Assembly: GCA_007694185.1 (NCBI GenBank)
Contig: RECD01000197.1
Span: 1 to 33,816, forward strand
Direction of reading: 5' to 3'
Length of the DNA stretch: 33,816 bases
From: Planctomycetaceae bacterium
GTDB taxonomy: Bacteria > Planctomycetota > Planctomycetia > Pirellulales > Pirellulaceae
Position numbers and translations under genes: made by a program. Every line of letters starts with the position of its first letter. Position 1 is the first letter of the stretch. Positions 10,980-28,045 of this stretch are shown here, piece by piece. The notes under the pieces are model-generated. The model had not been told where the DNA came from. It ran no database searches and saw only the letters and a list, made by a program, of their open reading frames with translations.

Positions 10980-11323
10980 GGGGAGATTCCGGGATCGGGT
11001 CGGACCGCCTGTTCGACCCATTCGGCATAGGCGGCGGATGCGTCAGCGGGTCGAATGACGATCCATTGGGGCAGTGAGTACGGGTGCTGGTCGTGAGCGG
11101 CTCGTTGCAAGTCTTCGAGCCGGGCTTCTGTCGACTTGATCGATAGCCTCCATTCCGCCGACCGTTCGGCTTTTCCCTCCCATACGTAATGACTGGTGAT
11201 CGGGCCGTCGATTTGGACGCAGGCGGCGAGCCGTCGTCGGATCAGCTCGGCGGCCAGTTCCTCGGCACGCTCCGCGGTATCGACGGTTGTGATGGCGATC
11301 ACCAGTTCCGGCGAATTAGACAT
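10976..11323 (-). CDS. cutA: Divalent cation tolerance protein CutA
   Basis: A 115-aa member of the CutA1 family, trimeric ferredoxin-like proteins originally tied to copper tolerance in E. coli but whose biochemical role is still unclear. The family marks are present: an N-terminal strand VIAITTVDTAERAEELA, RRLAACVQI, the conserved HYVWEGK stretch, LSIKSTEARLEDL, and the HPYSLPQ motif before the last strand. The start chosen is the ATG at 11323, which places VIAIT where the family begins; a longer frame reaching 11401 would run into uvrA and add non-family residues. The ATG overlaps the 3' end of uvrA by 8 bases and the stop overlaps the next gene by 4, so the three are translationally coupled. 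Confidence 0.93.
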   Translation of the reverse strand: MSNSPELVIAITTVDTAERAEELAAELIRRRLAACVQIDGPITSHYVWEGKAERSAEWRLSIKSTEARLEDLQRAAHDQHPYSLPQWIVIRPADASAAYAEWVEQAVRPDPGISP

Positions 11324-14240
11324 GCTGCGATCCTGCAAGGGTTTGGCCCGTTCGCGAAGGTTTGACGAGGGCAACTTCCGCCGGGGTACCGGTGGCGACA
11401 ACGGTGCCTCCCTGGTCGGCGGCTCCCGGTCCGAGATCGATCAGGTAATCGGCTGCCCGGATCAGTTGGGGGTTGTGTTCGACAACGATCAAGGAGTGCC
11501 CGGCTTCGATCAGTTGATCGAGGCAGGCGTGCAGTCGATCGATGTCCGCGAAGTGCAGTCCGGTGGTCGGTTCATCGAGGATGAACAGCGTTTTTCGCTT
11601 GGCCGAACCGGCCAAAAAGGCGGCTAGCTTCAACCGTTGGGCTTCACCGCTCGACAGCGTCGTGGCGCTTTGCCCCAAGGCGACGTAATCGAGCCCGACG
11701 GCAATCAGTCGTTGCAACCGCTCTTGGACCTTTTCCTCACCACGAAAAAAACTGTGGGCGGCGCGGACGGTCATACCGAGAACGTCAGCGATCGAGCGGT
11801 CACGGTAGCGAACCTGCAAGATTTCGTCCCGATAACGCGTACCATGACAGGCGGGGCATTTCATCGAGACGTCGGCCAAGAACTGCATATCGATCGTGAG
11901 TTGCCCGTCCCCCTCGCAGGTCGGGCAGCGCCCCGCTTCGCTGTTGAAGCTGAAATGTCCGGGGCCGAAATTGCGAACCTTGGCCTCGACCGTCGCGGCA
12001 AAGGCGGTGCGGATCGCGTCCATCGCTTTGACGTAGGTCACCGGGTTGCTCCGCGGGCTGCGGCTGATCGGCGCCTGGTCGATCAGTTCGCAATGACCGA
12101 TGTCGACGACCCCTTCGATGTCATCGTGAGCCAGTGCCGTTGCGGCAGACAAACCGAGCCGGCGACGGACCGCCGGGTAGAGCGTGTCCTGGACCAGCGA
12201 GCTCTTGCCGCTGCCTGAGACGCCCGTGACCAAGCACAGGACACCGAGCGGAAAGGAGACGTCGATCCCCTGCAGGTTGTGTCCGCGAGCGTTGCGGAGG
12301 GTCAGGAAACCGCGCGGGACACGCGGTTTCCGATCGCTCAGCCCGCCACCGCGACGGCCAGATAAGTAATCTCCCGTCGGGCTGGTGCGGTCCGCCAGCA
12401 TCCCCTTCAGGTTGCCTTGATAGACGATCGCCCCGCCGGAATCACCGGCACCCGGGCCGAACTCGATCAGCCGATCGGCCGCACGCATCAGGCTTTCCTC
12501 GTGTTCGACGACGACCACGGTGTTGCCCCGGTCACGCAAACCGAGGATCACCCCGCGAAGCCTCGCGACGTCGTGGGGATGCAGCCCCGCGGTCGGCTCG
12601 TCCAGCACGTACAGCATGTTCACCAAGGAACTGCCGAGCGCCCCGGTCAACGCGACCCGCTGCGTTTCTCCCCCTGACAAGGTGCGCAGGGTTCGGTCGA
12701 GTTGCAGGTAGGCGAGCCCAACGCGATCGAGGTAATCGAGCCGTCGCAGGATTTGGCCGAGCGGTTCAGCGGCGATCGTGCGACGCGTCGGATCGAGTTC
12801 CAACGAATTCACGAACGCGACGACCTGGTCGCCTCGCATCGCCGTGACGTCCGCGATGTGCTTGTCGCCGATCCGGTAACTGAGTGCTTCCGGTCGCAGG
12901 CGTTTGCCGCCGCATTCGGGACAGGTCCGATAGGAGCGGTAGCGAGACAGCAGCACCCGAATGTGCATCTTGTACTTCTTCCGCTCCAGCCAAGCGAAGA
13001 ATCCATCCAAGCCGCCGAACTTTCGCTCGGGCACCCCCTGCTGAATCAGCCGCAGCTGTTTTTTCTTCAGCGCGCGAAACGGGACATCGACCGGCAGGTC
13101 GTAATCGGGGGCGAGTTCCAGCAACTCGTCGAGTTCGTGTCGGTAAGAAGGTGAATTCCAAGGCTGGATCGCCCCTTCCCGGATCGACAATTCCGGGTTG
13201 GGGATCACCAGTCCCATGTCGATGTCGACCACATCGCCGAAGCCCTCGCAGCGCGGGCAGGCCCCGAGCGGCTGGTTGAAATGGAAAAGCCGCTGTGTCG
13301 GCTCGGGATAGTCGATTTCGCAGACTTCACAACGCAGGCGATTGCTCAGCAGAATCCGCGACCAAGGCCGTCCGTCAAGCAGTAAGGAATCGGACGGTTT
13401 GCGTCGGGTCGCTCCCGACCGGCGGCCGCGGCCGGCTCGAGCACCGGCGTCCGAGCCGGGTGTTGAACCGAAAAATGCTTCCCAAGCATTCGGCTGAGTC
13501 GCCGCGTCGTCTTCGATCAGCAGGACCCAGCGGCCTTCCCCTTCGCCGCCCGCCGTTTCCAACGATTCGGTGACCTGGTCGATCGGGCTGGACGGCGTCA
13601 GCCGGTCGACGATCACGGTCGCGGTGATCCCTCGCTTGGGGATCGCCCTCGCCAGTTCGGTGCGGTCCGATTCCGCGAGATGAAAGAGTTGTTCGCCGAT
13701 GATCAGCCGTTGGTAGCCGGCTTGTTGCAATTCCGCCAGACGTTCGGAGGTCTCTTCGCGGTTGCCAAGGACGACCTCAAAGCCGAGCATCAGCCGCGAT
13801 CCCGCGGGCAACTCGCCGATGGACTTGGCGACCAGCGCCGGGTCGTCACGACGGATTTCCGCCCCGCAGCCGTGGCAGGTCAAGGTCGCGATTTTCGCGA
13901 ACAACAATCTCAGGTGGTCGGCGATCTCGGTCGCCGTCGCCACGGTGCTGCGGCTGGTACGACCGCCGCCGGCACGGGTCACGGCGATCGCGGGGGGAAT
14001 CCCTTCGATCGAATCGCAGTCCGGCTTGTCGAGCCGCTGCAAAAATTGCCGCGTGTACGCCGAGAAACTCTCGATGTATCTCCGCTGGCCCTCGGCGTAG
14101 AGCGTGTCGAGGGCAAAGCTGGTTTTTCCGCTGCCGGAGAGCCCGCAGACGACAACCAATTCACCGCGCGGGACGTCAACGTCGACCCCCCGAAGGTTAT
14201 GAACCCGACATCCGCGGACACGAATCGGCTCCGATGACAT
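11316..14240 (-). CDS. uvrA: Excinuclease ABC subunit A (UvrA)
   Basis: Damage-recognition ATPase of bacterial nucleotide excision repair, loading UvrB at lesions. 974 aa with two ABC modules. Module 1: Walker A GLSGSGKT at 33-40, EGQRRYIESFSAYTRQFL, a UvrB-binding-type region at about 120-245, a zinc module (CEVC at 304-307 and CPRC at 328-331), signature LSGGETQR at 521-528 and VLDEPTAGLHP. Module 2: GVSGSGKS at 673-680, the zinc hairpin CPTC at 772-775 and CPAC at 795-798, signature LSSGEAQR at 862-869, and ILDEPTTGLHF. Two oddities: a low-complexity Arg/Gly/Ser insertion at about 246-288, and the second signature, where the usual LSGGE is LSSGE. Retention of the UvrB-binding region argues against a UvrA2-type paralogue. 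First gene of an overlapping operon with cutA and an unknown. Confidence 0.93.
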   Translation of the reverse strand: MSSEPIRVRGCRVHNLRGVDVDVPRGELVVVCGLSGSGKTSFALDTLYAEGQRRYIESFSAYTRQFLQRLDKPDCDSIEGIPPAIAVTRAGGGRTSRSTVATATEIADHLRLLFAKIATLTCHGCGAEIRRDDPALVAKSIGELPAGSRLMLGFEVVLGNREETSERLAELQQAGYQRLIIGEQLFHLAESDRTELARAIPKRGITATVIVDRLTPSSPIDQVTESLETAGGEGEGRWVLLIEDDAATQPNAWEAFFGSTPGSDAGARAGRGRRSGATRRKPSDSLLLDGRPWSRILLSNRLRCEVCEIDYPEPTQRLFHFNQPLGACPRCEGFGDVVDIDMGLVIPNPELSIREGAIQPWNSPSYRHELDELLELAPDYDLPVDVPFRALKKKQLRLIQQGVPERKFGGLDGFFAWLERKKYKMHIRVLLSRYRSYRTCPECGGKRLRPEALSYRIGDKHIADVTAMRGDQVVAFVNSLELDPTRRTIAAEPLGQILRRLDYLDRVGLAYLQLDRTLRTLSGGETQRVALTGALGSSLVNMLYVLDEPTAGLHPHDVARLRGVILGLRDRGNTVVVVEHEESLMRAADRLIEFGPGAGDSGGAIVYQGNLKGMLADRTSPTGDYLSGRRGGGLSDRKPRVPRGFLTLRNARGHNLQGIDVSFPLGVLCLVTGVSGSGKSSLVQDTLYPAVRRRLGLSAATALAHDDIEGVVDIGHCELIDQAPISRSPRSNPVTYVKAMDAIRTAFAATVEAKVRNFGPGHFSFNSEAGRCPTCEGDGQLTIDMQFLADVSMKCPACHGTRYRDEILQVRYRDRSIADVLGMTVRAAHSFFRGEEKVQERLQRLIAVGLDYVALGQSATTLSSGEAQRLKLAAFLAGSAKRKTLFILDEPTTGLHFADIDRLHACLDQLIEAGHSLIVVEHNPQLIRAADYLIDLGPGAADQGGTVVATGTPAEVALVKPSRTGQTLAGSQHV

Positions 14241-14268
14241 CGTCGTCCGGCCGGGTGGGCGCGCCGTT

Positions 14269-14421
14269 TTAGCGGCGGGTCTTCTTCGTCTTGGCGTTGC
14301 CCTGACGAACCTTCAACTTCGGATTGCTTTTGCAAATCACGTAAATTCGGCCACGCCGACGCACCACCTGGCAATCCGGATGCCGGTGCTTGAGCGAACC
14401 GATGCTGCTTACAACTTTCAT
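14269..14421 (-). CDS. rpmJ: 50S ribosomal protein L36, zinc-free (C-minus) type
   Basis: A 50-aa gene. The protein starts [20 protein letters not shown] and continues [20 protein letters not shown], ending in a Lys/Arg tail, which closely matches the YkgO-type L36 of E. coli. Standard L36 binds zinc with three Cys and one His; here only Cys17 and Cys30 remain, so zinc binding is unlikely. In E. coli the zinc-free form is an extra copy induced under zinc shortage; here it may be the only copy. The ATG at 14421 is the start and TAA at 14269-14271 the stop, 28 bases before the uvrA start on the same strand. Confidence 0.92.
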
Positions 14422-14659
14422 GATCGAAAACTCAGGTCTGCGGTGATAACAATCCGGCTGCGGCTGATGGAGGAAGATACACCGTAATCCGATCGGCCGC
14501 CAAGGGCGGATCGGTCCAGGTCATCGCCGACAAACAACGCTCAAAGGTACCGAGCACTCCCGGCGGAGACAATGGGACCGGCCGACTTTTGACCCGATTG
14601 GCCGCTCGCCGAGAAAGTGAGCAAACGGCAGCAACCCGAGATCAAACGGCAGCCCCAAA

Positions 14660-14932
14660 TCAGGCGACGGCTTGCGACTTCTTGATCGCGGCGACCAAAC
14701 GGCTCTTCAACCGCGCCGCCGTATTGGCGTGAATCAGCTTCGTCGAAGCGGCCTGATCGAGCCGCTTGGCCGCCAACCGGAACTCGGTGGTGGCAACTTC
14801 CACGTTACCGGCCGCGATGGCAGCCCGAACCTTGCGGATTTGGGTTCGCAGTGAACTACGCCGAGCGCGGTTCCGGGCCCTTCGTTTGTCGTTTTGGCGA
14901 AGCCGTTTCTTGGCGGTGGAGGTGTTTGGCAT
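14660..14932 (-). CDS. rpsT: 30S ribosomal protein S20
   Basis: A 90-aa, very basic, all-helical protein that binds 16S rRNA early in small-subunit assembly. It begins MPNTSTAKKRLRQNDKRRAR, the hallmark N-terminus of S20, followed by the NRARRSSLRTQIRKVRAAI helix and the late LIHANTAARLKSRL segment that matches the conserved IHKNKAARxKSRL region. The length is normal. The ATG at 14932 is unambiguous, with no Shine-Dalgarno. It stands alone: rpmJ lies 238 bases downstream on the same strand and the cobA-hemD gene diverges 183 bases upstream. No obvious promoter hexamers or terminator could be fixed in these gaps. Confidence 0.96.
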   Translation of the reverse strand: MPNTSTAKKRLRQNDKRRARNRARRSSLRTQIRKVRAAIAAGNVEVATTEFRLAAKRLDQAASTKLIHANTAARLKSRLVAAIKKSQAVA

Positions 14933-15115
14933 GGCGAGGTCGGGCGGTCCGGTCCAAACGACCGGGCGGGGGTCGAGTAAAGGAGACGATCAACGATAGA
15001 ATCAGGACGCACAAAACGCCCCCGCCGACCTGCCGGCCAGCGGATATACGCGAAAAGTATGCCAGGCCCCGGGTGGCTTGTCCAGGGCTAATCCGACCGC
15101 GCATATTAGTCGGCC

Positions 15116-16696
15116 ATGCAACCTTCTGCCTACCTGATCGGTGCCGGCCCCGGCGACCCCGGCCTTCTGACTCTCCGAGGTGCCGAATGCTTGGGCCGGG
15201 TCGAGGTCGTGCTGTATGACGGGCTCAGCAATCCCAAGCTGCTCCAACACGCCCCCCAGGCGGAATGGATCTGTGTCGGCAAACATGGCCAAAGCCGAAT
15301 TTGGACCCAGGCCCAGATCAACGAGGAGATGATCCGGCATGTTCGAGCCGGCCGGCGTGTCGCCCGACTGAAGGGTGGCGACCCCGCCGTCTTTGCCCGC
15401 ACGGCCGAGGAGATCGACGCGCTGCGGGGCGCGAACATCCGCTTCGAAGTCGTCCCCGGGATCACCGCGGCCTTGGCCGCGGGCAGTTACGCCGGGATCC
15501 CGATCACCCATCGCCGTTTTGCCTCCGCGGTCGCCTTGGTCACCGGCCAAGAAGAGCCGGGCAAAGCCCCGTCGTCCCTCGATTGGGAAGCTCTGGCCCG
15601 CTTTCCCGGCACGCTGGTGGTTTACATGGGTGTGACCACCGCTCGCCACTGGACGGCAGCGCTGCTCGCGGCCGGCAAGCCGCCCGAAACGCCGGCCGCC
15701 ATCCTGCGACGCTGTTCATTGCCCGATCAGGAAAAAATCATCTGCCGCCTCGATCAGGTCGCCGACCGGCTGACCCCAGCCTCCAAGCTGCGGCCCCCCG
15801 TGATCGTGATCGTGGGTGAAGTCGCCCGACTGGCGTCCGAACCCTGCTGGTTTGACGACCGACCGCTGGCCGGCCAATCCGTGCTGGTGACCCGTGCGGA
15901 ACAACAGGCGGAAGAATTGGCCGCCCCGCTGACGGAACTGGGTGCCGAAGTCCTGGTCCAGCCCGCGATCGAACTGCTGCCTGTCGAAGATTTCTCCGAA
16001 CTGGATGCGAAAATCGCCGCGATCGCCGACTACGACTGGCTGATTTTTACCAGTCGCAACGGGGTCAGCCATTTTCTCGATCGCATGTGGGCACTCGGCA
16101 AAGATTCACGCCACCTGAAAAACGTCCGGCTGGCGGTAGTCGGAAAGCGAACCGCCCAGGCACTCCACGACCGGCACTTGCTGCCCGATCTGGCCGCCGG
16201 GATGAACGCCGAAGCCCTGGCCACGGAACTGATCGCCCGAGAGTCGTTGAAGTTGCCCCATGGAGCGACACCGACCAACGAACCGGCCGCCCCCTTGGCC
16301 GGCCGACGATTCCTGTGGGCCCGCGCCAGCCGCGGGCCCGACCGCCTGGCCCAACGGCTGACAAATGCCGGCGGCCAGGTGCAGCAGGTGGTCGCCTATC
16401 GCCATCTCGATATCGCCGTCGCCGATCCGGTGGTCGCCGCTCGCCTGGCAGGTGGCAAACTGAACTGGGTGACGGTCACCAGCGACGCCACCGCCCATGC
16501 CTTGGTGCGGCTGTTCGGCGATTCGCTCCGCACCGCCCAAATCGCGTCGCTCAGCCCCAACATCACCTGCACCCTCAAACGGCTCGGCTTGCCCGTCGCG
16601 GCCGAGGCGGCGGAACCGACGATGGGTTCCCTCGTAACCGCGATGGCCGACCAGTCGTTGAACGATCCGAGCGGCGGGACCGAAACGTCGTCTTGA
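15116..16696 (+). CDS. cobA: Fused uroporphyrinogen-III C-methyltransferase / uroporphyrinogen-III synthase
   Basis: One polypeptide joins two tetrapyrrole enzymes. Residues 1-245 are the SAM-dependent methyltransferase (CobA/SUMT) that makes precorrin-2: YLIGAGPGDPGLLTL at 6-20, VVLYDGLSNP, RLKGGDPAVFAR at 84-95, VVPGITAALAAGSYAGIPIT at 112-131 and VVYMGV. Residues about 250-515 are HemD, which closes and inverts ring D of hydroxymethylbilane: it opens LAGQSVLVTRAEQQAEELA and includes LIFTSRNGVSHFLDRM, VVGKRTAQAL and VTVTSDATAHALVRLF. HemD is weakly conserved, but its order and length fit. Such fusions are known in several phyla. The fusion couples uroporphyrinogen III formation with its diversion to siroheme or cobalamin. 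The ATG at 15116 starts right at the conserved fold. hemC is not in the window. Confidence 0.93.
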   Translation: MQPSAYLIGAGPGDPGLLTLRGAECLGRVEVVLYDGLSNPKLLQHAPQAEWICVGKHGQSRIWTQAQINEEMIRHVRAGRRVARLKGGDPAVFARTAEEIDALRGANIRFEVVPGITAALAAGSYAGIPITHRRFASAVALVTGQEEPGKAPSSLDWEALARFPGTLVVYMGVTTARHWTAALLAAGKPPETPAAILRRCSLPDQEKIICRLDQVADRLTPASKLRPPVIVIVGEVARLASEPCWFDDRPLAGQSVLVTRAEQQAEELAAPLTELGAEVLVQPAIELLPVEDFSELDAKIAAIADYDWLIFTSRNGVSHFLDRMWALGKDSRHLKNVRLAVVGKRTAQALHDRHLLPDLAAGMNAEALATELIARESLKLPHGATPTNEPAAPLAGRRFLWARASRGPDRLAQRLTNAGGQVQQVVAYRHLDIAVADPVVAARLAGGKLNWVTVTSDATAHALVRLFGDSLRTAQIASLSPNITCTLKRLGLPVAAEAAEPTMGSLVTAMADQSLNDPSGGTETSS

Positions 16697-16837
16697 AAAA
16701 TTGCGGACAGACCGCCCCAGTTTGGCTTGCCAGATCCGTCAGTGGCCACTAGATTGCTCGATCCCGGTCGGGCGCACCTGGTTGCGAGCCTGCCCGATCG
16801 GCTTTCGACACACCCCCTTTAACGCGGTTTCCTGACT

Positions 16838-17293
16838 GTGGTCGCTCAAAGAAGCTACGTCGCCAAGCCCGGCGAGCTAGAAAAGAATTGGTTCGTAGTG
16901 GACGCCGCCGATGAGGTTCTCGGGCGGTTGGCGAGTGACATCGCGATGATCTTGATGGGCAAGCATCGTCCCGAGTACACGCCCCACGTCGATTGCGGCG
17001 ACTTCGTCGTGGTCGTGAACGCGGAAAAGGTTGGCATGACCGGCCGCAAAATGGACGTGCGGCATTACACCTGGTACACGGGTCACCCCGGGCTCCGCCT
17101 GGAAAGCTACAGCGATCGCCAAGCTCGCAAGCCGGAAGATCTGATTTTCCACGCGGTCCGCCGCATGATGCCCAAGAACAAGCTCGCTCGGCACATGATG
17201 AGCAAACTGAAAATTTACGCCGGCCCTGAGCATCCGCATGCGGCTCAAATGCCCATGCCCTTGCAGCGGACCAGCAAAAAAGTGACGGCCTGA
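16838..17293 (+). CDS. rplM: 50S ribosomal protein L13
   Basis: 151 aa. Large-subunit protein that binds 23S rRNA early in assembly. Key stretches: KNWFVVDAADEVLGRLASDI, LMGKHRPEYTPHVDCGDFVV, NAEKVGMTGRKM, and the HAVRRMMPKNKLARHMMSKL helix followed by YAGPEHPHAAQMP, all standard for L13. The only start that fits is GTG at 16838, with no visible Shine-Dalgarno. It is followed by rpsI on the same strand, the usual L13-S9 pair, but with an unusually long 146-base spacer containing two hairpins. The 141 bases upstream, after cobA-hemD, probably contain a promoter though none could be fixed. Confidence 0.96.
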   Translation: MVAQRSYVAKPGELEKNWFVVDAADEVLGRLASDIAMILMGKHRPEYTPHVDCGDFVVVVNAEKVGMTGRKMDVRHYTWYTGHPGLRLESYSDRQARKPEDLIFHAVRRMMPKNKLARHMMSKLKIYAGPEHPHAAQMPMPLQRTSKKVTA

Positions 17294-17294
17294 C

Positions 17295-17329
17295 CCCCGC
17301 ACGCGGGGCGGTCACTCCGAACCGGAGTG
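17295..17329 (+). repeat. Two tandem hairpins between rplM and rpsI
   Basis: Immediately after the rplM stop are two perfect short inverted repeats: bases 17295-17299 pair with 17304-17308 (5 bp, loop CACG), and 17313-17319 pair with 17323-17329 (7 bp, loop AAC). Neither is followed by a T-run, so full termination is unlikely. They could set the L13:S9 ratio by attenuation or RNA processing, or be remnants of an intergenic repeat: the string GGTCACTCCG also occurs in the hairpin at 28115-28143. Confidence 0.45.
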
Positions 17330-17439
17330 GGCCTGTCGGACCCTGAGTGAAGCCTTGAGGCTGTCGCGAGATCGCCGGGAACGTATCCCGACAGATCTCC
17401 TTGATCGAATTCACAACGTTCCTTTCCTGGCTATCTTCG

Positions 17440-19444
<2,005 letters not shown>

Positions 19445-19455
19445 GGAACGCCCCG

Positions 19456-20910
19456 TTGGCTTCACCGACCGACGATGCCGCGAACGCTGCTGCCGCCGAC
19501 GCACTCGGCGGCTCCGGTCCCTATCGACCGATTCCGGACGGGGACGTTGCCGCCGCGGGGACGGTCGCGCCAACCGAGTCGTTCGCAGAGCGGCACCCGC
19601 TGAGCAACCCGTCGTTCGTCGGCTACGTCTCGACGCAGTTCCTGGGAGCCTTCAACGACAACCTGTTCAAGCAATTGATGCTGCTGCTCGCCTTGCCGAC
19701 CGCAGCGGCGGTCGCGGTCGATCAAGCCGACGAGGGGGGCGACCTGCAAGGGATCGCGACGATGGTCTTCGGGCTGCCGTTCGTGATCTTCGGAGGCCTG
19801 GCCGGCTACCTGGCGGACCGCTTCAGCAAGCGGCGGGTGATCGTCCTCAGCAAGGTGGCGGAGATCGTCGTGATGACGCTGGGGCTGCTGGCGTTCCTGG
19901 CGGCCCCCCAAATCGGCTTCTCGGGGCTGTGGATCGTGATGTTCCTGATGGGAACACAGAGCGCCTTTTTCGGCCCGGGGAAATACGGGATCCTTCCCGA
20001 AATGCTGCGAAGTTCCCAATTGGCTCGGGCCAACGGCATCGTGATGATGACGACCTTCATGGCGATCATCTTCGGGACGGGCGCGGCCGGTCCGATCAAG
20101 GATTGGTTCACACCTGACGGGGCGAGCCGATTGGACGCCGCGCATTCGCTGTGGGTCGCGTCCTGCGTTTGCATCTTCATTGCGGTCGCGGGGACCTTCG
20201 TCAGCCTCTGGATCCGTCCGGTCGCGGTGGCGGCACCGGGCCTCGGCTTTCGCCCCGAATACCTCCTTGTCCCTCGCCCGATGCGAGGGCTGCTGAGGCG
20301 GGACCGACCGCTGGTGGGCGCCCTGTTGGCCTCGTGCGCTTTTTGGCTGATCGCCGGCCTGACCATCCAAGCGGTCAATTCCCTCTGCGGCACGCAGTTG
20401 AAAATGAGCAACACGGCGACCAGTTGGATGGTGTCGCTGATCAGCATCGGGATCGCGGTCGGCGGATTGCTCGCCGGGTGGCTCAGCCGATTCTGGGGTG
20501 ATCGCTGGGTGCTGCGGATCGGCATGTGGGGCGTCGTGGCGGGCTGTGCCATCCTGTCTATCACGTTGCCCGATGGCCGGCTGCTGATCGGACGGGGCGG
20601 GCTGCCGATCGTGCTGATCCTGCTCGGGACCGCGGCAGCGATGTTCGCCATCCCGATCCAGGTCTTCCTACAAGCCCGTCCGCCAGCCGAATTGAAGGGC
20701 CGCATGATCGCGGTGATGAATCAAGCAAATTTTTTCGCGATCGTCCTGTCGGGCGCCGTCTACATCGGACTCGATCAACTCATCGTGGCGACGGATTGGC
20801 CTCGCTCGGCACTTTTTGCGGCGATGGCCGTGATCTTCCTGCCCGTCGCGATCTGCTATCGACTCGATCCGTTGGCTCCCAACGAATCGTCGCCAGAAGT
20901 GGCATCATGA
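19456..20910 (+). CDS. MFS transporter, LplT-like (lysophospholipid transporter family)
   Basis: A 484-aa membrane protein with about 12 hydrophobic spans after a 50-residue polar N-terminus rich in Ala and Asp. The first span begins with STQFLGAFNDNLFKQLMLLL (residues 59-78); the FxxAFNDN motif is characteristic of LplT and of the MFS half of the LplT-acyltransferase fusions, which flip lysophospholipids across the inner membrane. The loop after the second span carries AGYLADRFSKRR, the MFS motif A. No acyltransferase domain is attached. The start is TTG 19456, with AAGGAA about 7 bases upstream and only 11 bases after the thiC stop, so the two genes are almost surely co-transcribed. That pairing would equally allow a thiamine-precursor role, but the sequence motif favours a lipid or other amphipathic substrate. 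Confidence 0.75.
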   Translation: MASPTDDAANAAAADALGGSGPYRPIPDGDVAAAGTVAPTESFAERHPLSNPSFVGYVSTQFLGAFNDNLFKQLMLLLALPTAAAVAVDQADEGGDLQGIATMVFGLPFVIFGGLAGYLADRFSKRRVIVLSKVAEIVVMTLGLLAFLAAPQIGFSGLWIVMFLMGTQSAFFGPGKYGILPEMLRSSQLARANGIVMMTTFMAIIFGTGAAGPIKDWFTPDGASRLDAAHSLWVASCVCIFIAVAGTFVSLWIRPVAVAAPGLGFRPEYLLVPRPMRGLLRRDRPLVGALLASCAFWLIAGLTIQAVNSLCGTQLKMSNTATSWMVSLISIGIAVGGLLAGWLSRFWGDRWVLRIGMWGVVAGCAILSITLPDGRLLIGRGGLPIVLILLGTAAAMFAIPIQVFLQARPPAELKGRMIAVMNQANFFAIVLSGAVYIGLDQLIVATDWPRSALFAAMAVIFLPVAICYRLDPLAPNESSPEVAS

Positions 20911-21128
20911 TCTCCCCAGGCCGGTTCGCAGCTCGATTTTGGACAGCGACTGGCGACGACACCTGCTGCCGACCCGTTTGCCGATGCCTGCCCCGAGCGA
21001 CCGGACGGCAGCGCCCGCGATGTACGGATCGGCGTTTCGTGTTAAGTTACCAACCGCCGCGATGTCGACCCTCCGTTTTACCTCGCGGCTTTTCACCCGC
21101 AACCGATCGCCCCTGGCTGTAGATTCCG

Positions 21129-23279
21129 ATGACCCTCGATCTCTATTCCCTCTGCCCCTCCGGAAACGGAAAGAAAATCAAGTTCTGCAAATGCCAGGAT
21201 TCACTCTCTGAGTTGGACAAGATCGTGACGATGGTCACGGGAGGCCAGGTTGTCCCGGCTCTCGATCGACTGAATCGCATGCTGGCAGAACACCCCGACG
21301 CGGCCTGCGCCTTGGCGATCAAGGGTCGGATCCTGCTCAACCTGCGTGAGTTCGACCTGTTGGCGGAAAACGCCGAAAGGTTCGTGCGATTGCAACCGAC
21401 CAACCCGCTCGCTTTGACCCAACGAGCAGTGGCCCAAATGGTCCAGGGCAAATTGGGCGAGGCGACCGAATCGATCCTGGAGGCCATTTCGGAGAGCGGC
21501 AATAAGTTCGATTCGTTCGTGTTGGAAGTCACTTCGATGTTGGCTTACCAATTGCTCGAGTCCGGTCAATTTTTGGCGGCTCGTGCGTACGCCATGCTGG
21601 TGATGATGACGGAAGGGTTCGAAGGCCAAGAAGCGGTGGCGAGCCTGCTGGAGAGGTTGAATACCGATCCTGCCGTCAGCCATCTCGTCAAGGCGCTCCC
21701 CAGCCATCGGCCGCGCCCCGAACGTGCCGAATGGGGTGAACGGTTCGACGAAGCCTTGGGGTTGCTGCGAAGTCACCGGATCACCTTGGCGAATACCAAA
21801 TTTTCGTCGCTTGCTCGGGCCTACCCGAATGAACCGTCGATCCTGTCAGGGCTGCTCACTTGCGCGATTTGGCGAGCCGACAGCAAGGCTCAGGTCGATT
21901 GCCTGAAGCGGTTGGCGCAGTGCGAACAACTCGATCCCACGCAGCGAAGCAAGTTCCTGGCGATGGCTTGGTTGAGCGAACCAGGCTTGCAGGACTTGTC
22001 GGTCGAATTGATGTCGATGAAATCCGATGTCGAAGATGTCGCCCGCGACGAACAGGCGCTGCGGTCCAATCCGTATTTCGCCGAAGTGCCGGATGCGACC
22101 TTGCGGTCGCTGGTCGCGTCCGAGGACGAAGTGCCGCCGCGATCAGGCTTCCAATTGCTCGATCAGCCGCTGCCCAGTTCGGAGACCACGATTACCGGCG
22201 AAAATCTTTCCGAGACACTGGCGCTTGTGCTGGTTTTCGGCAAACAGACCGACCGACCGGCGCGGATCGAGGTGAAGGCGGTTTTGCCGATGTTCTTGGA
22301 AGTGGTCCGACGCACCTTGGCAGAGACTTTGGAAAAGCTGCCGTGGGTCGAAGAACCCTATCAGTCGGTCCCGTTCGTGATGGCCAGCGACCCGCGGCCG
22401 GCCTGGGCCGATCGGCCGAATTATCGGAAAAACTTGGAGCCGATCCTGGCCGAGTTCCGCCAGTCACGCTTCGCGCACCGGATGACCAAGCAACCGCTTC
22501 CGGCGTTGAATCTTCGGAGCCTCGCGGATGCGGCGAACGATCCGAATCTGACGCTGCAACGGGAAGCGATCCTGCGAGTGTTGGAAAACACCGAATCGCT
22601 TGCTCAAAATCCCGAACTGCTCGACCAGGTCCGTCAGGAGTCCGGCGTCGCCCCCTTGCCGCCGCTCGTCCTGAAGACTGCCGACGAATTGGAACAGATC
22701 GAGAACTCAGACCTTCCCCGCGTCGATTGCCAGCAACTCGACGGAGAAGGGCTGCGGTTTCTGATGAGCCGAGCTCGGTTGCTGCAAATGGGCCAGGTGC
22801 TGCGGGAGGTGTCGCGTGAAGCGTTATCCCGTGAAGAAGTTCCCGGCGACGCGGACGACGCGAACTTCCGCTCCGGCGCCTACCTCGGGTTGATCGAATC
22901 GAGCGATACCTTCGAGGAATCGCTTCGCTGGATTGCCGAAGCTAAATCCTTCTTCGTCAAACGTGGCCTGGACACTGCGAACCTGTTGCTGGTCGAACTG
23001 TCGACCCGCATTCGGGCCGGTGACTTGGAAGGCTTCCAAACGACGCTGCGGACGTTGACGACCGAGCACAGCCACCGGGAAGAGGTGATGCAGATTTTGC
23101 AGCAGATGCTGATCTCTTTGGGCCTTCTTAACCCCGATGGATCTCCGCGACGTGGCCCGATGCGGCCGGGCGCCGCCCCGGAGCCTCCGGCATCCGCCGG
23201 TGGGATTTGGACCCCGGACGGTGGCGGGGCGCCGGACGCCCCAGCTTCCGGCAAGCTGTGGGTCCCCGGAATGGATTGA
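21129..23279 (+). CDS. TPR-like helical-repeat protein with degenerate SEC-C-like N-terminus
   Basis: 716 aa, no signal peptide or membrane span, so probably cytoplasmic. Residues 8-22 (LCPSGNGKKIKFCKC) look like a decayed SEC-C zinc motif (usual form CxCGSGKKYKxCC): Cys9, Cys20 and Cys22 remain and the second Cys is Ser. Residues about 30-200 form helical hairpins of TPR type (ALDRLNRMLAEHPDAACALA; EFDLLAENAERFVRLQPTNP), with further helices to about 300 and 600-680. The middle (about 350-560) has no family I can name. The last 55 residues are Pro/Gly-rich (GGIWTPDGG; SGKLWVPGMD). The gene lies 78 bases before two Hsp70-family genes on the same strand, so a co-chaperone or substrate-adaptor role is a reasonable inference, given that TPR proteins often bind Hsp70 tails. 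Start ATG 21129, no Shine-Dalgarno. Confidence 0.78.
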   Translation: MTLDLYSLCPSGNGKKIKFCKCQDSLSELDKIVTMVTGGQVVPALDRLNRMLAEHPDAACALAIKGRILLNLREFDLLAENAERFVRLQPTNPLALTQRAVAQMVQGKLGEATESILEAISESGNKFDSFVLEVTSMLAYQLLESGQFLAARAYAMLVMMTEGFEGQEAVASLLERLNTDPAVSHLVKALPSHRPRPERAEWGERFDEALGLLRSHRITLANTKFSSLARAYPNEPSILSGLLTCAIWRADSKAQVDCLKRLAQCEQLDPTQRSKFLAMAWLSEPGLQDLSVELMSMKSDVEDVARDEQALRSNPYFAEVPDATLRSLVASEDEVPPRSGFQLLDQPLPSSETTITGENLSETLALVLVFGKQTDRPARIEVKAVLPMFLEVVRRTLAETLEKLPWVEEPYQSVPFVMASDPRPAWADRPNYRKNLEPILAEFRQSRFAHRMTKQPLPALNLRSLADAANDPNLTLQREAILRVLENTESLAQNPELLDQVRQESGVAPLPPLVLKTADELEQIENSDLPRVDCQQLDGEGLRFLMSRARLLQMGQVLREVSREALSREEVPGDADDANFRSGAYLGLIESSDTFEESLRWIAEAKSFFVKRGLDTANLLLVELSTRIRAGDLEGFQTTLRTLTTEHSHREEVMQILQQMLISLGLLNPDGSPRRGPMRPGAAPEPPASAGGIWTPDGGGAPDAPASGKLWVPGMD

Positions 23280-23357
23280 TCTGCCGCGCATGACCGCCGC
23301 CGGCAGGAGTTCATGGAGGTCCTTTCTTTCCTTTGCTGAGTTTTCGGTCCCACACGA

Positions 23358-25160
23358 ATGCCATCTCGTTACTGCGTCGGAATCGACTTAGGGACCACCC
23401 ATTCGGTGGTCGCCTACACCCCGCTCGATGTCGAGCAGGCCGAACTGAGCTTGTTGCCGATCCCCCAAGCCGTCGCGGCCGGACAAATCGACTCGTTCGA
23501 CTCGCTCCCTTCCTTTCTCTACCTGGCCCCGGAGCCAGAACAGGCGGCTTACCGCTTGCCGTGGGGTGACTCGGATAACGACCCGGGACAAGTCGTCGGG
23601 GAAGCGGCGCGTGGCAAAGCCGCCGAATCGCCGCAGCGGGTCGTCGCGACGGCCAAAAGCTGGCTCGCCCATTCCCGCGTCGATCGGCATGCCGCGATCC
23701 TGCCTTGGCAGGCCCCTGCCGAGGTCAACAAGGTCTCTCCGGTCGACGCGACGAAGGCCTACCTCCGGCATTTGGTCGCCGCCTGGAACGAGGCTCATCC
23801 CGACGCCCCGTTGGCCGAACAGCAGGTGGTGCTGACGGTCCCCGCCTCCTTCGACCCGGCGGCCCGTGACCTGACGCGACAAGCCGCTTTGGCCGCCGGC
23901 TTGCCCGCGGACATCGTGTTGCTGGAGGAACCCCAAGCGGCCGTCTACCGCTGGGTTCAGGGACGTGGCGAACAGTGGCGACGGAATCTGACGGCAGGTG
24001 ACTCGATCCTGGTGGTCGACGTCGGCGGCGGGACCACCGACTTGACGCTGGTTCGTCTGTCAGAAATCGACGGGAACATGGAGTTGGAACGGCAGGCGGT
24101 CGGCAACCACCTGCTGGTCGGCGGCGACAACATGGACTTGGCGCTCGCCTTTCGCGTCGCGCAAAAATTGGAGGCCGCCGGCCATCGGCTGGACCCGTGG
24201 CAGAACGTCTCCCTGTGGCATGCCTGCCGCGCCGCCAAGGAACGTTTGCTGGGATCAGGCGAAGCGAAAAGCGAAACCATTTCGGTGCTCGGCCGCGGTA
24301 CCAAACTGATCGGCGGCACGATCTCGACCGAGTTGGACCGAGACGAAGCGGCCGCCTGTTTGGTCGACGGTTTCTTCCCCCACTGCACCCTCCAGGACAA
24401 ACCGGAACGGAACGTCCAATCGGGCTTTCAGGATCTGGGGTTGCCTTACGAATCCGATCCGGCGGTCACCCGCCACGTCGCCGCTTTCCTGTCGAGCCAA
24501 CGGCCGTCCGATGGTGGAAACCCGGCCGGCATGCCCACCCACCTGCTGTTCAACGGTGGCGTGTTTCGCGCCTCGCTGCTCCGTGACCGGTTTTGCGAAG
24601 TCACCACCGGTTGGGCGGGCGGTGAGGCTCCCACGGTTCTCGGCGGCCCGGAAGACCTCGATCACTCGGTAGCCCTGGGCGCCGCCTACTACGCTTGGTC
24701 AAAATCTCGCGGCGGCATCCGCATCCGTGGCGGCACCGCTCGCAGCTATTACATCGGGATCGAAACCGCCGGGCTGGCGATCCCCGGCGCCCCACGACCA
24801 CTCCGGGCGCTCTGCGTCGCCCCGCGCGGAATGGAAGAAGGAACCGCCGCGGAAGTGCCCAGCCAGGAAGTCGGTGTGATCGTCGGCCGCCCCGCCCGCT
24901 TTCGTTTTTTCTCGTCGACCGTCCGAGTCGACGACGCCGTCGGCGATTCGCTCGACCGCTGGTCACCGGAGGAATTGGTCGAAAGCGACCCGATCCACAC
25001 GACGCTCGATTCGGAACATTGCGAGCCGGACACGTGCCTTCCGGTGCGGTTTCAAAGCCAAGTCACCGAACTGGGTACTTTCGAACTCTATTGCCTCAGC
25101 ACCCAGGCCGAGGAACGCTGGAAAATGGGCTTCAACGTCCGCGAGGATGGTGACGCGTGA
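23358..25160 (+). CDS. Hsp70 family protein, lid-less (first of pair)
   Basis: 600 aa. The actin/Hsp70 ATPase fold is clear: phosphate-1 CVGIDLGTTHSVVAY at 6-20, VPASFDPAARD at 161-171, LLEEPQAAVY at 188-197, phosphate-2 VVDVGGGTTDLTLV at 219-232, GGDNMDLALA at 255-264, the adenosine motif LLFNGGVFR at 396-404 and DHSVALGAAYYA at 435-446. It differs from DnaK: the adenosine motif has FNGG instead of VGGxTR, the N-terminal domain has an extra loop at 55-125, and after about residue 455 only about 145 residues remain, enough for a short beta domain but not the helical lid; no EEVD-like tail is seen. It is thus a non-canonical Hsp70 whose substrate is unknown. It overlaps the next gene by 4 bases. 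No CIRCE-like repeat was noticed upstream. Confidence 0.9.
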   Translation: MPSRYCVGIDLGTTHSVVAYTPLDVEQAELSLLPIPQAVAAGQIDSFDSLPSFLYLAPEPEQAAYRLPWGDSDNDPGQVVGEAARGKAAESPQRVVATAKSWLAHSRVDRHAAILPWQAPAEVNKVSPVDATKAYLRHLVAAWNEAHPDAPLAEQQVVLTVPASFDPAARDLTRQAALAAGLPADIVLLEEPQAAVYRWVQGRGEQWRRNLTAGDSILVVDVGGGTTDLTLVRLSEIDGNMELERQAVGNHLLVGGDNMDLALAFRVAQKLEAAGHRLDPWQNVSLWHACRAAKERLLGSGEAKSETISVLGRGTKLIGGTISTELDRDEAAACLVDGFFPHCTLQDKPERNVQSGFQDLGLPYESDPAVTRHVAAFLSSQRPSDGGNPAGMPTHLLFNGGVFRASLLRDRFCEVTTGWAGGEAPTVLGGPEDLDHSVALGAAYYAWSKSRGGIRIRGGTARSYYIGIETAGLAIPGAPRPLRALCVAPRGMEEGTAAEVPSQEVGVIVGRPARFRFFSSTVRVDDAVGDSLDRWSPEELVESDPIHTTLDSEHCEPDTCLPVRFQSQVTELGTFELYCLSTQAEERWKMGFNVREDGDA

Positions 25161-28045
25161 GTCGGCCCGCCAGTTCGGATGCTTCCGTCGCGGTCGATCC
25201 AGGTGCCCCGCCGAGATACGTCGTCGGCATCGACCTGGGGACGACCAACTGCGCGGTCGCCTCCGTCGACACCCAACAGGTCTCCCGGTCGGGTGACTTC
25301 CCGATCTCGACCTACCTGATTCCCCAATGGGTCGACTGGGGACAATTCGAGCGATTAGCGACACTCCCGTCTTTCCACTACGAAACGCCTGCGGACGCGA
25401 CAGAAAAGCCCATCCTAGGCCGGCCTTGGGCCGAGCCCGCTGACGCCAAGACCGCTGATGGAGATACAGCCGAACCGGACAAACCCAACTTCGTCGTCGG
25501 CACCTTGGCTCGCGACGCCGGCATGCGACAACCGGGCCGCCGGGTCGCGTCGGCCAAGAGCTGGTTGTCGCATGCCGGTGTCGACCGTTCGGCGCCGCTC
25601 CTCCCTTGGCGGGGCGACGCGGACGTTTCGCGGCACAGCCCGGTCGAAATCTCGGCGCGATACCTAGCCCATATCCGCGAGGCTTGGGACGCGGAACACC
25701 CAGACGAACCGTTGGCCCAACAGGACGTGGTGATCACCCTGCCGGCCTCCTTTGACGAGGTCGGTCGCGAACTGACCGTCGCCGCAGCCCGCCGCGCCGG
25801 CTTACCTCGGGTGTTCCTGATCGAAGAACCGCAGGCCGCGTTCTACGCATGGATCCATCGCCACCGTGAGGATTGGCGGCAACGGGTCAGCCCCGGGCAA
25901 TTGATCTTGGTCTGCGACATCGGCGGCGGCACGACCGACTTCACGCTGATTCGCGTCCGACCGACGGGAGATTCCGGCGGCGAGGTGCAGTTCCATCGGG
26001 TCGCGGTCGGCAAACACCTGATCCTCGGTGGTGACAACCTGGACTTGGCGCTCGCCACCGGGCTGGAAGCGAAAACGGCGGGCGATTCCGGCGGCGCCGA
26101 GCCCGCGTCGCTGCCGCCGCGTCAATGGGATCGGCTGGTGCAAGCCTGCCGCGGCGCGAAGGAAAAATTACTCGGCGAGCCACGTCCGGAGTCGTTGACG
26201 CTATCGATCGCGGGCGATTCGGCGCGGCTGCTCGCGACCGGTTGGACCACGACGGTGACCGCCGCCGACTGCGACCGCCTGCTGGTCGACGGGTTCTTTC
26301 CCGAGGTACCGCTGGACGCCCACCCCGCGTCCGATGTCGGCGGGTTTCGCGAGTTCGGATTGCCCTACGCCCAAGATCCAGCGATCACGCGCCATTTGGC
26401 CGAGTTCCTCGCCACGCACGTTCGCGCGGGGTTGGCCGAGGACGATCCCATCGACGCCGCCCGGCCGGATTGGGTGCTGTTCAACGGGGGCGTGATGTCG
26501 TCCCCAATCCTCCGCCAACGGCTGCTCGATTCGGTGCGTGATTGGTTCGCGAACGGGTCGTCCTGGCAGCCGCAAGAACTCGTCAGCGACCAACTCGATC
26601 TGGCAGTCGCGCATGGCGCGGCCTACTTCGGGATGGTCCGGCGTGGACTGGGGGTTCGGATCGCGGCCAACCTGGGACGCAGCTATTTTTTGCAAGTCGC
26701 CGACGAACCGCCGGAAACGACCTGTTTGGTTCCCGGCAACGCCCAACCGGGCAACCGTTACTCGTCCGACCAATCGCTGCGGTTGAGCCTCGGCGTCCCC
26801 GTCCAGTTTCCGCTGTGGGTCAGCAGCACGCGGTTGACCGACGCCCCCGGCGATCGGGTCGCCATCGACCGCGGGGAGCTGACGCCTCTGCCGCCGATTC
26901 GCACCGTGATGGTCCGTGGCCGTTCCAAATCAGCCGGTGAAATCGATGTCCGGATGGAAGCGGAACTGTCCGAGATCGGGACGCTCGGGCTGTACTGTGT
27001 CGAGGAAAACGGCGGCAAACGATGGCGATTGGAATTCGATGTCCGCAGCACCTTGCAAACCGACCGAGCGGCTCATGCCGGCAGCGGCGAATCGCACGGG
27101 ATCGTCGACTTGGAATTGCAGAGTCGTTGTAACGAATTGATCCGCCAAACCTTTCTGCCACCCGGCTCTGGGGTGACCGTGGACGCCCCGGGTCCGCTGA
27201 TCAAGAAGCTCAAGGCGGCCAGCGGCCTGGACCGCGATCATTGGCCCCCCTCGCTCCTGCGCGGGATGTGGCAAGCCTTGATCGAGACCTCCGAGGGACG
27301 CAGACGCTCGGCGGCGCACGAAACCCGCTGGTTGAACCTGACCGGCTATTGCCTTCGCCCCGGGTACGGGATGGCGGTGGACGATTGGCGGGTCGGTGAG
27401 GTTTGGCGGCGAATCCATGGCAAACTCGCCTTCGCCGCAGCCGGATCCCGCACCGAATCGCTGATCCTCTGGCGGCGGATCGCCGGTGGCCTGACTGCCG
27501 GTCAACAAGCCGAACTGATCGCCCCCTGGCTCGCCACGCTCAAAGGCAAGGCGACGCTGAACGCACCTCATGAAGTCGCCGAATGGTGGCGGATGGTCGG
27601 GGCACTCGAACGCCTCCCCTCACACACCAAGGCGATGCTGGCCGAAACCGCGCTGGCTCTCGTCGAAACAAAAAAATCGGCCCCCCATCGCGACGCGTTG
27701 CTGTGGGCGATCGGCCGGTTGGCCAGCCGACAACCGCTGTACGGGCCGCTCAACACGGTTGTCGATGTCGGGCCGGCGGCAGCGATTGTCAAGCGAATCA
27801 TTCGGGGCACAGACAACGCCGTGGCGCGACAATTGGCCTTGATGCAGATCGCCCGACGGACCGGTGATCGCTACCGCGAACTGAGCCCGGAACTGCGTGA
27901 CCGCGTCGCGGATTGGCTGCAAGCGACCGAGGCGCCGCAGCGTTACCTGCGGGCCGTTCTCGAAGGGGGAGACTGGGACACCGAAGACTCGGCCGCGATC
28001 TTCGGAGAATCGTTGCCGCTAGGCATCCGACTGACCGACGGCTGA
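25157..28045 (+). CDS. Large Hsp70 family protein with DUF3731-type C-terminal domain (second of pair)
   Basis: 962 aa. Hsp70 ATPase domain at about 20-500: YVVGIDLGTTNCAVA at 21-35, LPASFDEVGREL at 195-206, LIEEPQAAFYAW at 221-232, VCDIGGGTTDFTLIRV at 252-267, GGDNLDLALA at 291-300, VLFNGGVMSSPILRQR at 440-455, and DLAVAHGAAYFG at 481-492. A beta-rich segment follows to about 630. Residues about 650-960 are a long helical domain (WPPSLLRGMWQALIET; YCLRPGYGMAVDDWRVGEVW; WWRMVGALERL; LWAIGRLASRQPLYGPLN) matching what I recall as DUF3731, always found behind such Hsp70s. Start GTG 25157 overlaps the previous stop in a GTGA arrangement, giving translational coupling and likely a 1:1 complex. Sequence kinship between the two ATPase domains suggests an old duplication. 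Function unknown. Confidence 0.9.
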   Translation: MSRPASSDASVAVDPGAPPRYVVGIDLGTTNCAVASVDTQQVSRSGDFPISTYLIPQWVDWGQFERLATLPSFHYETPADATEKPILGRPWAEPADAKTADGDTAEPDKPNFVVGTLARDAGMRQPGRRVASAKSWLSHAGVDRSAPLLPWRGDADVSRHSPVEISARYLAHIREAWDAEHPDEPLAQQDVVITLPASFDEVGRELTVAAARRAGLPRVFLIEEPQAAFYAWIHRHREDWRQRVSPGQLILVCDIGGGTTDFTLIRVRPTGDSGGEVQFHRVAVGKHLILGGDNLDLALATGLEAKTAGDSGGAEPASLPPRQWDRLVQACRGAKEKLLGEPRPESLTLSIAGDSARLLATGWTTTVTAADCDRLLVDGFFPEVPLDAHPASDVGGFREFGLPYAQDPAITRHLAEFLATHVRAGLAEDDPIDAARPDWVLFNGGVMSSPILRQRLLDSVRDWFANGSSWQPQELVSDQLDLAVAHGAAYFGMVRRGLGVRIAANLGRSYFLQVADEPPETTCLVPGNAQPGNRYSSDQSLRLSLGVPVQFPLWVSSTRLTDAPGDRVAIDRGELTPLPPIRTVMVRGRSKSAGEIDVRMEAELSEIGTLGLYCVEENGGKRWRLEFDVRSTLQTDRAAHAGSGESHGIVDLELQSRCNELIRQTFLPPGSGVTVDAPGPLIKKLKAASGLDRDHWPPSLLRGMWQALIETSEGRRRSAAHETRWLNLTGYCLRPGYGMAVDDWRVGEVWRRIHGKLAFAAAGSRTESLILWRRIAGGLTAGQQAELIAPWLATLKGKATLNAPHEVAEWWRMVGALERLPSHTKAMLAETALALVETKKSAPHRDALLWAIGRLASRQPLYGPLNTVVDVGPAAAIVKRIIRGTDNAVARQLALMQIARRTGDRYRELSPELRDRVADWLQATEAPQRYLRAVLEGGDWDTEDSAAIFGESLPLGIRLTDG

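Follow-up and report, generated by a model that had tools for sequence, protein, structure and literature searches.

Three types of prokaryotic Hsp70, namely DnaK, HscA, and HscC, are named in the passages available from a review of these proteins (PMC8215388). The last one is described there as marked by deletions in the ATPase domain and by an insertion in loop L1,2 of the SBD-beta, and as working with membrane-anchored J-proteins, with the suggestion that a nucleotide exchange factor would be unnecessary. HscA and HscC are specialised Hsp70s, as are the two proteins presented in this work, here named HSP1 and HSP2, even though these lie far under the curated cut-off for HscA. The gene set closest to theirs combines DUF2760 (PF10816), Hsp70 (PF00012), and DUF3731 (PF12531), and the locus described below carries both of its Hsp70 types, arranged alike.

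The HSP1-HSP2 pair is widespread and unstudied. Our literature search found no paper mentioning DUF2760, PF10816, PF12531, or DUF3731. In Vibrio cholerae, VC1373 and VC1374 are called DnaK-related in tables, and VC1373-VC1375 are listed as one unit; in the portions of those sources at hand, these genes appear in tables from screens and transcriptome studies with no mechanism given, and one V. cholerae study reports in its available part that the regulator HapR activates the VC1375 promoter. A DnaK-related protein of Photobacterium appears, in the excerpt retrieved, as an entry of a carbonylation table, and the accessible passages of a paper dealing with DnaK duplication (PMC11019930) do not concern the HSP1-HSP2 pair.

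The stretch of DNA analysed here, referred to as the window, comprises 33,816 nucleotides from a Planctomycetaceae bacterium whose genome (G000) is 99% complete and encodes a canonical DnaK elsewhere. Three genes of the plus strand are found in it, with the sizes and the overlap that an earlier note had given them, as the open reading frame coordinates bear out: a SEC-C/TPR-like protein of 716 amino acids with an ATG start (21129-23279), hereafter the TPR protein; HSP1, an Hsp70 of 600 amino acids with an ATG start (23358-25160); and HSP2, an Hsp70 of 962 amino acids with a GTG start and a C-terminal DUF3731 domain (25157-28045). The stop of HSP1 and the start of HSP2 overlap by 4 bp (GTGA, 25157-25160), and the TPR gene is separated from HSP1 by a gap of 78 bp, in which a terminator-like site was looked for and none was found. 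Another divergent Hsp70 is encoded in the same genome at C11:32472-33200, within an open frame of 902 codons. The stretch from a UvrA-like gene to the TPR gene (11316-21129) is rearranged within the genus, the spacing between the two genes being about 6.9 kb in the window and about 0.6 kb, on different sides, in the genomes G363 and G294 (loci L151 and L153). An anti-phage defence role was considered and set aside, as PADLOC gave weak matches only (best E 0.00075).

Both HSP1 and HSP2 belong to the Hsp70 superfamily, according to the score of their ATPase domains against PF00012 (50.9 and 63.3 bits, respectively, for a Pfam cut-off of 20.6) and to their conserved catalytic and phosphate-binding residues. 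For these positions we use the DnaK numbering: the equivalents of D8, T11, K70, E171, D194, and T199 are kept in 17/17 HSP1 rows, and those of T11, K70, E171, D194, and T199 in 60/60 HSP2 rows, with D8 kept in 59 of these. The description of the pair as two coupled non-DnaK Hsp70s holds, since the scores against the DnaK equivalog TIGR02350 of NCBIfam (56.6 and 53.4 bits) are far under its cut-off of 822.55. The same is true for the HscA equivalog TIGR01991, with 81.9 and 73.6 bits for the pair and a cut-off of 708.55.

The AlphaFold2 model of HSP2, built on an alignment of 60 rows (pLDDT 85.5, pTM 0.86), shows a complete Hsp70 core. Its nucleotide-binding domain, at about residues 18-500 (25208-26656, plus strand), matches Hsp70 ATPase domains with Z of about 30-32 over some 350 residues, and is followed by an SBD-beta sandwich at about residues 505-626 (26669-27034, plus strand), whose modelled beta strands span residues 509-625. 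The model matches the ATPase domain plus SBD-beta of DnaK and BiP over residues 18-635, approximately, with Z of about 31-35 across some 470 residues and a best Foldseek E of 7e-24, and the 50 structure matches listed for it are Hsp70 cores. After the core comes a stretch of low confidence and then 16 helices between residues 652 and 946, in the region of the DUF3731 domain (residues 718-959; 27308-28033, plus strand), which is recognised with 236.7 bits against a cut-off of 25. HSP1 is 39% identical to residues 18-630 of HSP2 and ends there, the SBD-beta being assigned to HSP1 by this homology and to HSP2 by its model. The protein therefore stops where the beta-sandwich ends and has no lid, as the earlier note had proposed.

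Thus, the window pair shares with DnaK and with the eukaryotic Hsp70/BiP proteins of solved structure the ATPase domain, the SBD-beta fold, and the catalytic residues. Contrary to them, HSP1 lacks the alpha-helical SBD-alpha lid that follows the SBD-beta, and HSP2 runs on into DUF3731 instead. The pair also has FNGG in place of the VGG motif, a substitution noticed earlier, with the N kept in 17/17 HSP1 and 60/60 HSP2 rows; the EEVD tail is missing too, the last four residues being DGDA in HSP1 and LTDG in HSP2. Further, the equivalents of R167 and N170, the DnaK residues that contact the J-domain, have been lost: the first one is changed in 17/17 HSP1 and 59/60 HSP2 rows, and the second one is E in all 17 and all 60. 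The DnaK of the window's own genome retains both residues.

In the phylogenetic tree, a branch with support 100 has all 25 HSP1 rows on the same side, which indicates that the two Hsp70 types either parted before spreading over the phyla involved or spread together. The single, very long outgroup makes the root of this tree unsure, and HSP2 needs two changes in it, so that grouping as a unit is established for HSP1 only. The HSP1 and HSP2 of the window group with Stieleria proteins, which suggests a planctomycete host close to the Pirellulaceae.

The earlier note associated such Hsp70 pairs with DUF2760 in proteobacteria, and the association holds. Relatives of HSP2 are confirmed at least 579 times in public species genomes and, according to the record titles of the best 80 of these, they occur in Planctomycetota, Verrucomicrobia, Lentisphaerae, Chloroflexi, Nitrospirae, Deltaproteobacteria, Myxococcus, and Nitrosomonas. 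Among these best 80 of at least 579 relatives, which come from several phyla, 61 loci extend at least 2.5 kb upstream of HSP2, and in 33 of them HSP1 is the gene directly before it; 31 loci extend at least 1.2 kb upstream of HSP1, and in 29 of these the gene directly before HSP1 is DUF2760. DUF2760-HSP1-HSP2 is the commonest order across phyla among the matches listed. Of ten loci fetched from other classes of the phylum, six (L169-L172, L175, and L176) present the three genes in that order, one has DUF2760-HSP1 divergent from HSP2 (L177), another shows HSP1-HSP2 at the edge of the locus (L179), and in the remaining two HSP2 alone is visible (L178 and L180). A further locus, L181, which belongs to the class of the window, has the usual DUF2760-HSP1-HSP2 order.

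In the sample of 118 genomes of the class, PF12531 is present in 89 and DUF2760 in 88; HSP2 and DUF2760 occur together in 88 genomes, HSP2 without DUF2760 in one, DUF2760 without HSP2 in none, and neither of them in 29 (Fisher p of about 1e-26, a value that ignores kinship). HSP1 and HSP2 are both found in 85 of these genomes, HSP2 without HSP1 in four, and neither in 29. The search for HSP1 itself matches 89 genomes, and in 85 of them an HSP1 distinct from HSP2 could be placed; three of the other four show the HSP2 match only, and for the fourth (G252) the places are not listed. The absences are clustered by family and hence not independent. The 20 PF12531 absences listed are spread over seven families; as three of these (f1, f2, and f80) also include gene-bearing members, several joint losses are likely. 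As for gene order in the class, DUF2760 and HSP1 are adjacent in 56/85 genomes, and HSP1 and HSP2 in 16/85. This retention of the genes together even where they lie apart argues for a joint function more than for simple linkage. When 149 genomes were drawn evenly over the phylum, 17 of them had PF12531.

Within the window's genus, DUF2760 is present in 5/5 genomes. In the window itself, it is not immediately upstream of HSP1, a place occupied by the TPR gene; the genome nevertheless keeps it on a separate contig, at C69:140000-140383, with 117.2 bits. Its four genus mates likewise encode DUF2760 on a contig different from the ones to which the Hsp70 genes or the TPR gene were assigned. Two of these four, G363 and G376, which are of low completeness (78% and 83%, respectively), have DUF2760 and no DUF3731 match, and this counts against a strict co-occurrence.

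The DUF2760 domain is modelled with confidence by AlphaFold2, with block means of 90-97 over residues 61-186 (L204:5579-6136 and relatives), and its comparison with the PDB gave no match better than E 2.6, the best Z being 4.4 over 61 residues. Judged by a crude cut-off for hydropathy, its N-terminus passes in 16 of 33 rows, consisting of 15 rows from Deltaproteobacteria and similar groups plus that of the window's genome, which passes barely (1.72 for a cut-off of 1.6). On the contrary, 0/15 of the other DUF2760 rows from planctomycetes, Verrucomicrobia, or Lentisphaerae pass, many of them bearing instead a short, FF-containing, and probably amphipathic N-terminal helix. Any link of DUF2760 to the membrane therefore rests mainly on the deltaproteobacterial rows.

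The TPR protein gives only sub-threshold TPR matches in Pfam and no match to SEC-C (PF02810) at E <= 1. The alignment with its relatives reveals a degenerate SEC-C motif near its N-terminus, CPSGNGKKIKFCKC (21153-21194, plus strand), where the relatives carry CPCGSGKKxKFCC; of five relatives scanned, one scores above the SEC-C cut-off (L100, 20.8 bits for a cut-off of 20.4) and one below. The motif is what these relatives have in common with SecA-like metal-binding-domain proteins such as YecA, as these are described in the passages available of PMC8076867. The copy in the window differs from such proteins in the loss of one motif cysteine and in the missing PF02810 match. Members of the TPR family often end in recurring (L/I)WTP and LWxPGMD motifs, spaced by low-complexity Pro/Gly/Ala linkers, which judging from their sequence could possibly form a binding tail.

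The earlier note saw the TPR gene and the Hsp70 pair as a candidate trio, and it suggested a gene-neighbourhood survey to check it. The outcome does not favour the trio, as no conserved linkage was found beyond one sister species, which is one of the two results that the note had asked for to refute it. Considering the 47 class genomes that have both, the TPR gene adjoins HSP1 in one, that of the window, to which only the sister species G340 can be added. In this second genome, TPR-HSP1-HSP2 recurs together with synteny of the flanks, a contig boundary within HSP1 dividing the arrangement; the TPR proteins of both species are about 66% identical, and the TPR-HSP1 gaps are of similar length (about 62 bp in G340 and 78 bp in the window), with the genes on the same strand. 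A chimeric contig as the source of the adjacency was judged unlikely, because the same gene order recurs in this separately assembled genome. The 80 named loci of the pair (the best 80 of at least 579 relatives, with 2.5 kb or more of sequence before HSP2 in 61 of them) showed no TPR-family gene beside it; the lone weak match to the TPR profile (34 bits, L192) is encoded on the other strand, some 3 kb away from HSP2, and a repetition of the search with 38 of the 43 profile rows left the outcome unchanged.

The usual neighbour of the TPR gene is instead ribD, which lies downstream on the same strand in 24 of 35 loci examined, these being chosen from longer lists. Within the family, ribD is downstream in 11/15 TPR loci other than the window's (identified through Pfam in four of the eleven), and across the class in 13/20, of which 12 overlap the TPR gene or follow it by no more than about 115 bp and one is about 2.7 kb away. 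In the window's genome, despite its completeness, RibD_C (PF01872) had no match, in a search whose control matched 14/14. Regarding its genus mates, G340 retains ribD on a different contig, G294 shows none, and G363 and G376 have TPR followed by ribD. G294 has the TPR gene on one contig and the Hsp70 pair on another. The simplest history would be a rearrangement that parted the TPR gene from ribD and brought in the Hsp70 pair.

The distribution of the TPR gene points in the same direction. It is detected in 78/118 class genomes at E <= 1e-5, where some matches, being weak and partial, are perhaps not orthologues, and in 192/199 genomes of the family at 1e-10, in comparison with 124/199 for DUF3731. 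It is present in 28/29 of the class genomes without HSP2 and in 50/89 of those with HSP2, a lower share that partly reflects distance, with weak and partial matches dominating the remoter families. The TPR protein is probably a chance neighbour and not part of an Hsp70 machine: a bystander is the most likely role for it, because the pair came to lie behind a TPR gene that is normally followed by ribD.

Taking all this into account, we consider it probable that HSP1 and HSP2, as ancient, paralogous, and lid-less Hsp70 ATPases, form one chaperone module together with DUF2760, with the TPR protein as a bystander. Some observations go against this reading. The adjacency of TPR and HSP1 persists in two species with short same-strand gaps, and no terminator-like site is present in the window's gap, so that, from the layout of the genes, co-transcription is possible. 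Additionally, a distance of 18-25 kb separates HSP2 from the TPR gene in four class genomes (G256, G187, G183, and G207), and one of about 30-32 kb, as measured by eye, does so in three genomes that belong to one genus (G354, G264, and G325), with varying order and orientation in both cases; these distances are given as observed. The possible membrane link has the planctomycete DUF2760 rows against it, as mentioned above.

In the proposed module, HSP1 and HSP2 would act as two ATP-gated peptide-binding units without lids, binding and releasing segments of client proteins with ATP and with no classical J-protein. DUF3731 would replace the missing lid in HSP2 as a clamp for the client or for a partner, and DUF2760 would be the co-chaperone, whose N-terminus, either as a transmembrane or as an amphipathic helix, may bring the module to the membrane, perhaps as a tether. 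From the lost J-domain contacts and the DUF2760 N-termini we infer that the module would be J-independent and possibly linked to the membrane. A bolder version of this proposal, which we put forward only tentatively, is that of a fourth kind of bacterial Hsp70 machine, independent of J-domains, in which HSP1 and HSP2 would be an asymmetric pair and DUF2760 the dedicated co-chaperone holding it at the membrane. HSP2 might there act on HSP1, by analogy, much as Hsp110 does on Hsp70.

Other explanations fare worse. A recent local recruitment, in which the rearrangement in part of the genus would have made a new operon and the TPR protein would have gained a secondary role with the Hsp70s, fits the arrangement common to two species, the short gaps, and the missing terminator-like site in that of the window. 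It is improbable, however, given that the contig of the pair in G294 is not that of the TPR gene, that G363 and G376 retain TPR-ribD, and that what favours it concerns position, not function. We also think it rather unlikely, with the odds clearly against it, that HSP1 and HSP2, instead of being chaperones, serve as ATP-switched scaffolds with the Hsp70 fold, using their beta domain for fixed protein contacts. The missing lid of HSP1, the loss of the J-domain contacts, and a sub-threshold MreB/Mbl match would suit such scaffolds, but the DnaK-like core is complete and includes the SBD-beta, the catalytic residues are conserved, and PF00012 outscores MreB. Finally, the proposal of the earlier note that the TPR/SEC-C protein takes the place of DUF2760 as a dedicated adaptor of the pair, for which its helical-repeat and SEC-C-like features would be suitable and its same-strand adjacency in the window's genome and G340 would be expected, is very improbable and was abandoned, because DUF2760 is still encoded at C69, the TPR gene is present in nearly all class genomes lacking the Hsp70s, adjoins HSP1 in just one of those having both, is absent beside the pair in the 80 named loci (the best 80 of at least 579), and usually neighbours ribD.

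The preferred reading, a module of HSP1, HSP2, and DUF2760, bears on how bacterial Hsp70s are grouped, as the curated scores make the pair neither DnaK nor HscA, to be compared with the scheme of three types named in the available passages of the review (PMC8215388). In the class sampled here, HSP2 is co-inherited with DUF2760, and the change of the candidate partner from the TPR protein to DUF2760 shows experimenters which bait fits. If true, a J-independent Hsp70 machine, possibly linked to the membrane, would represent a new and testable mode of Hsp70 action.
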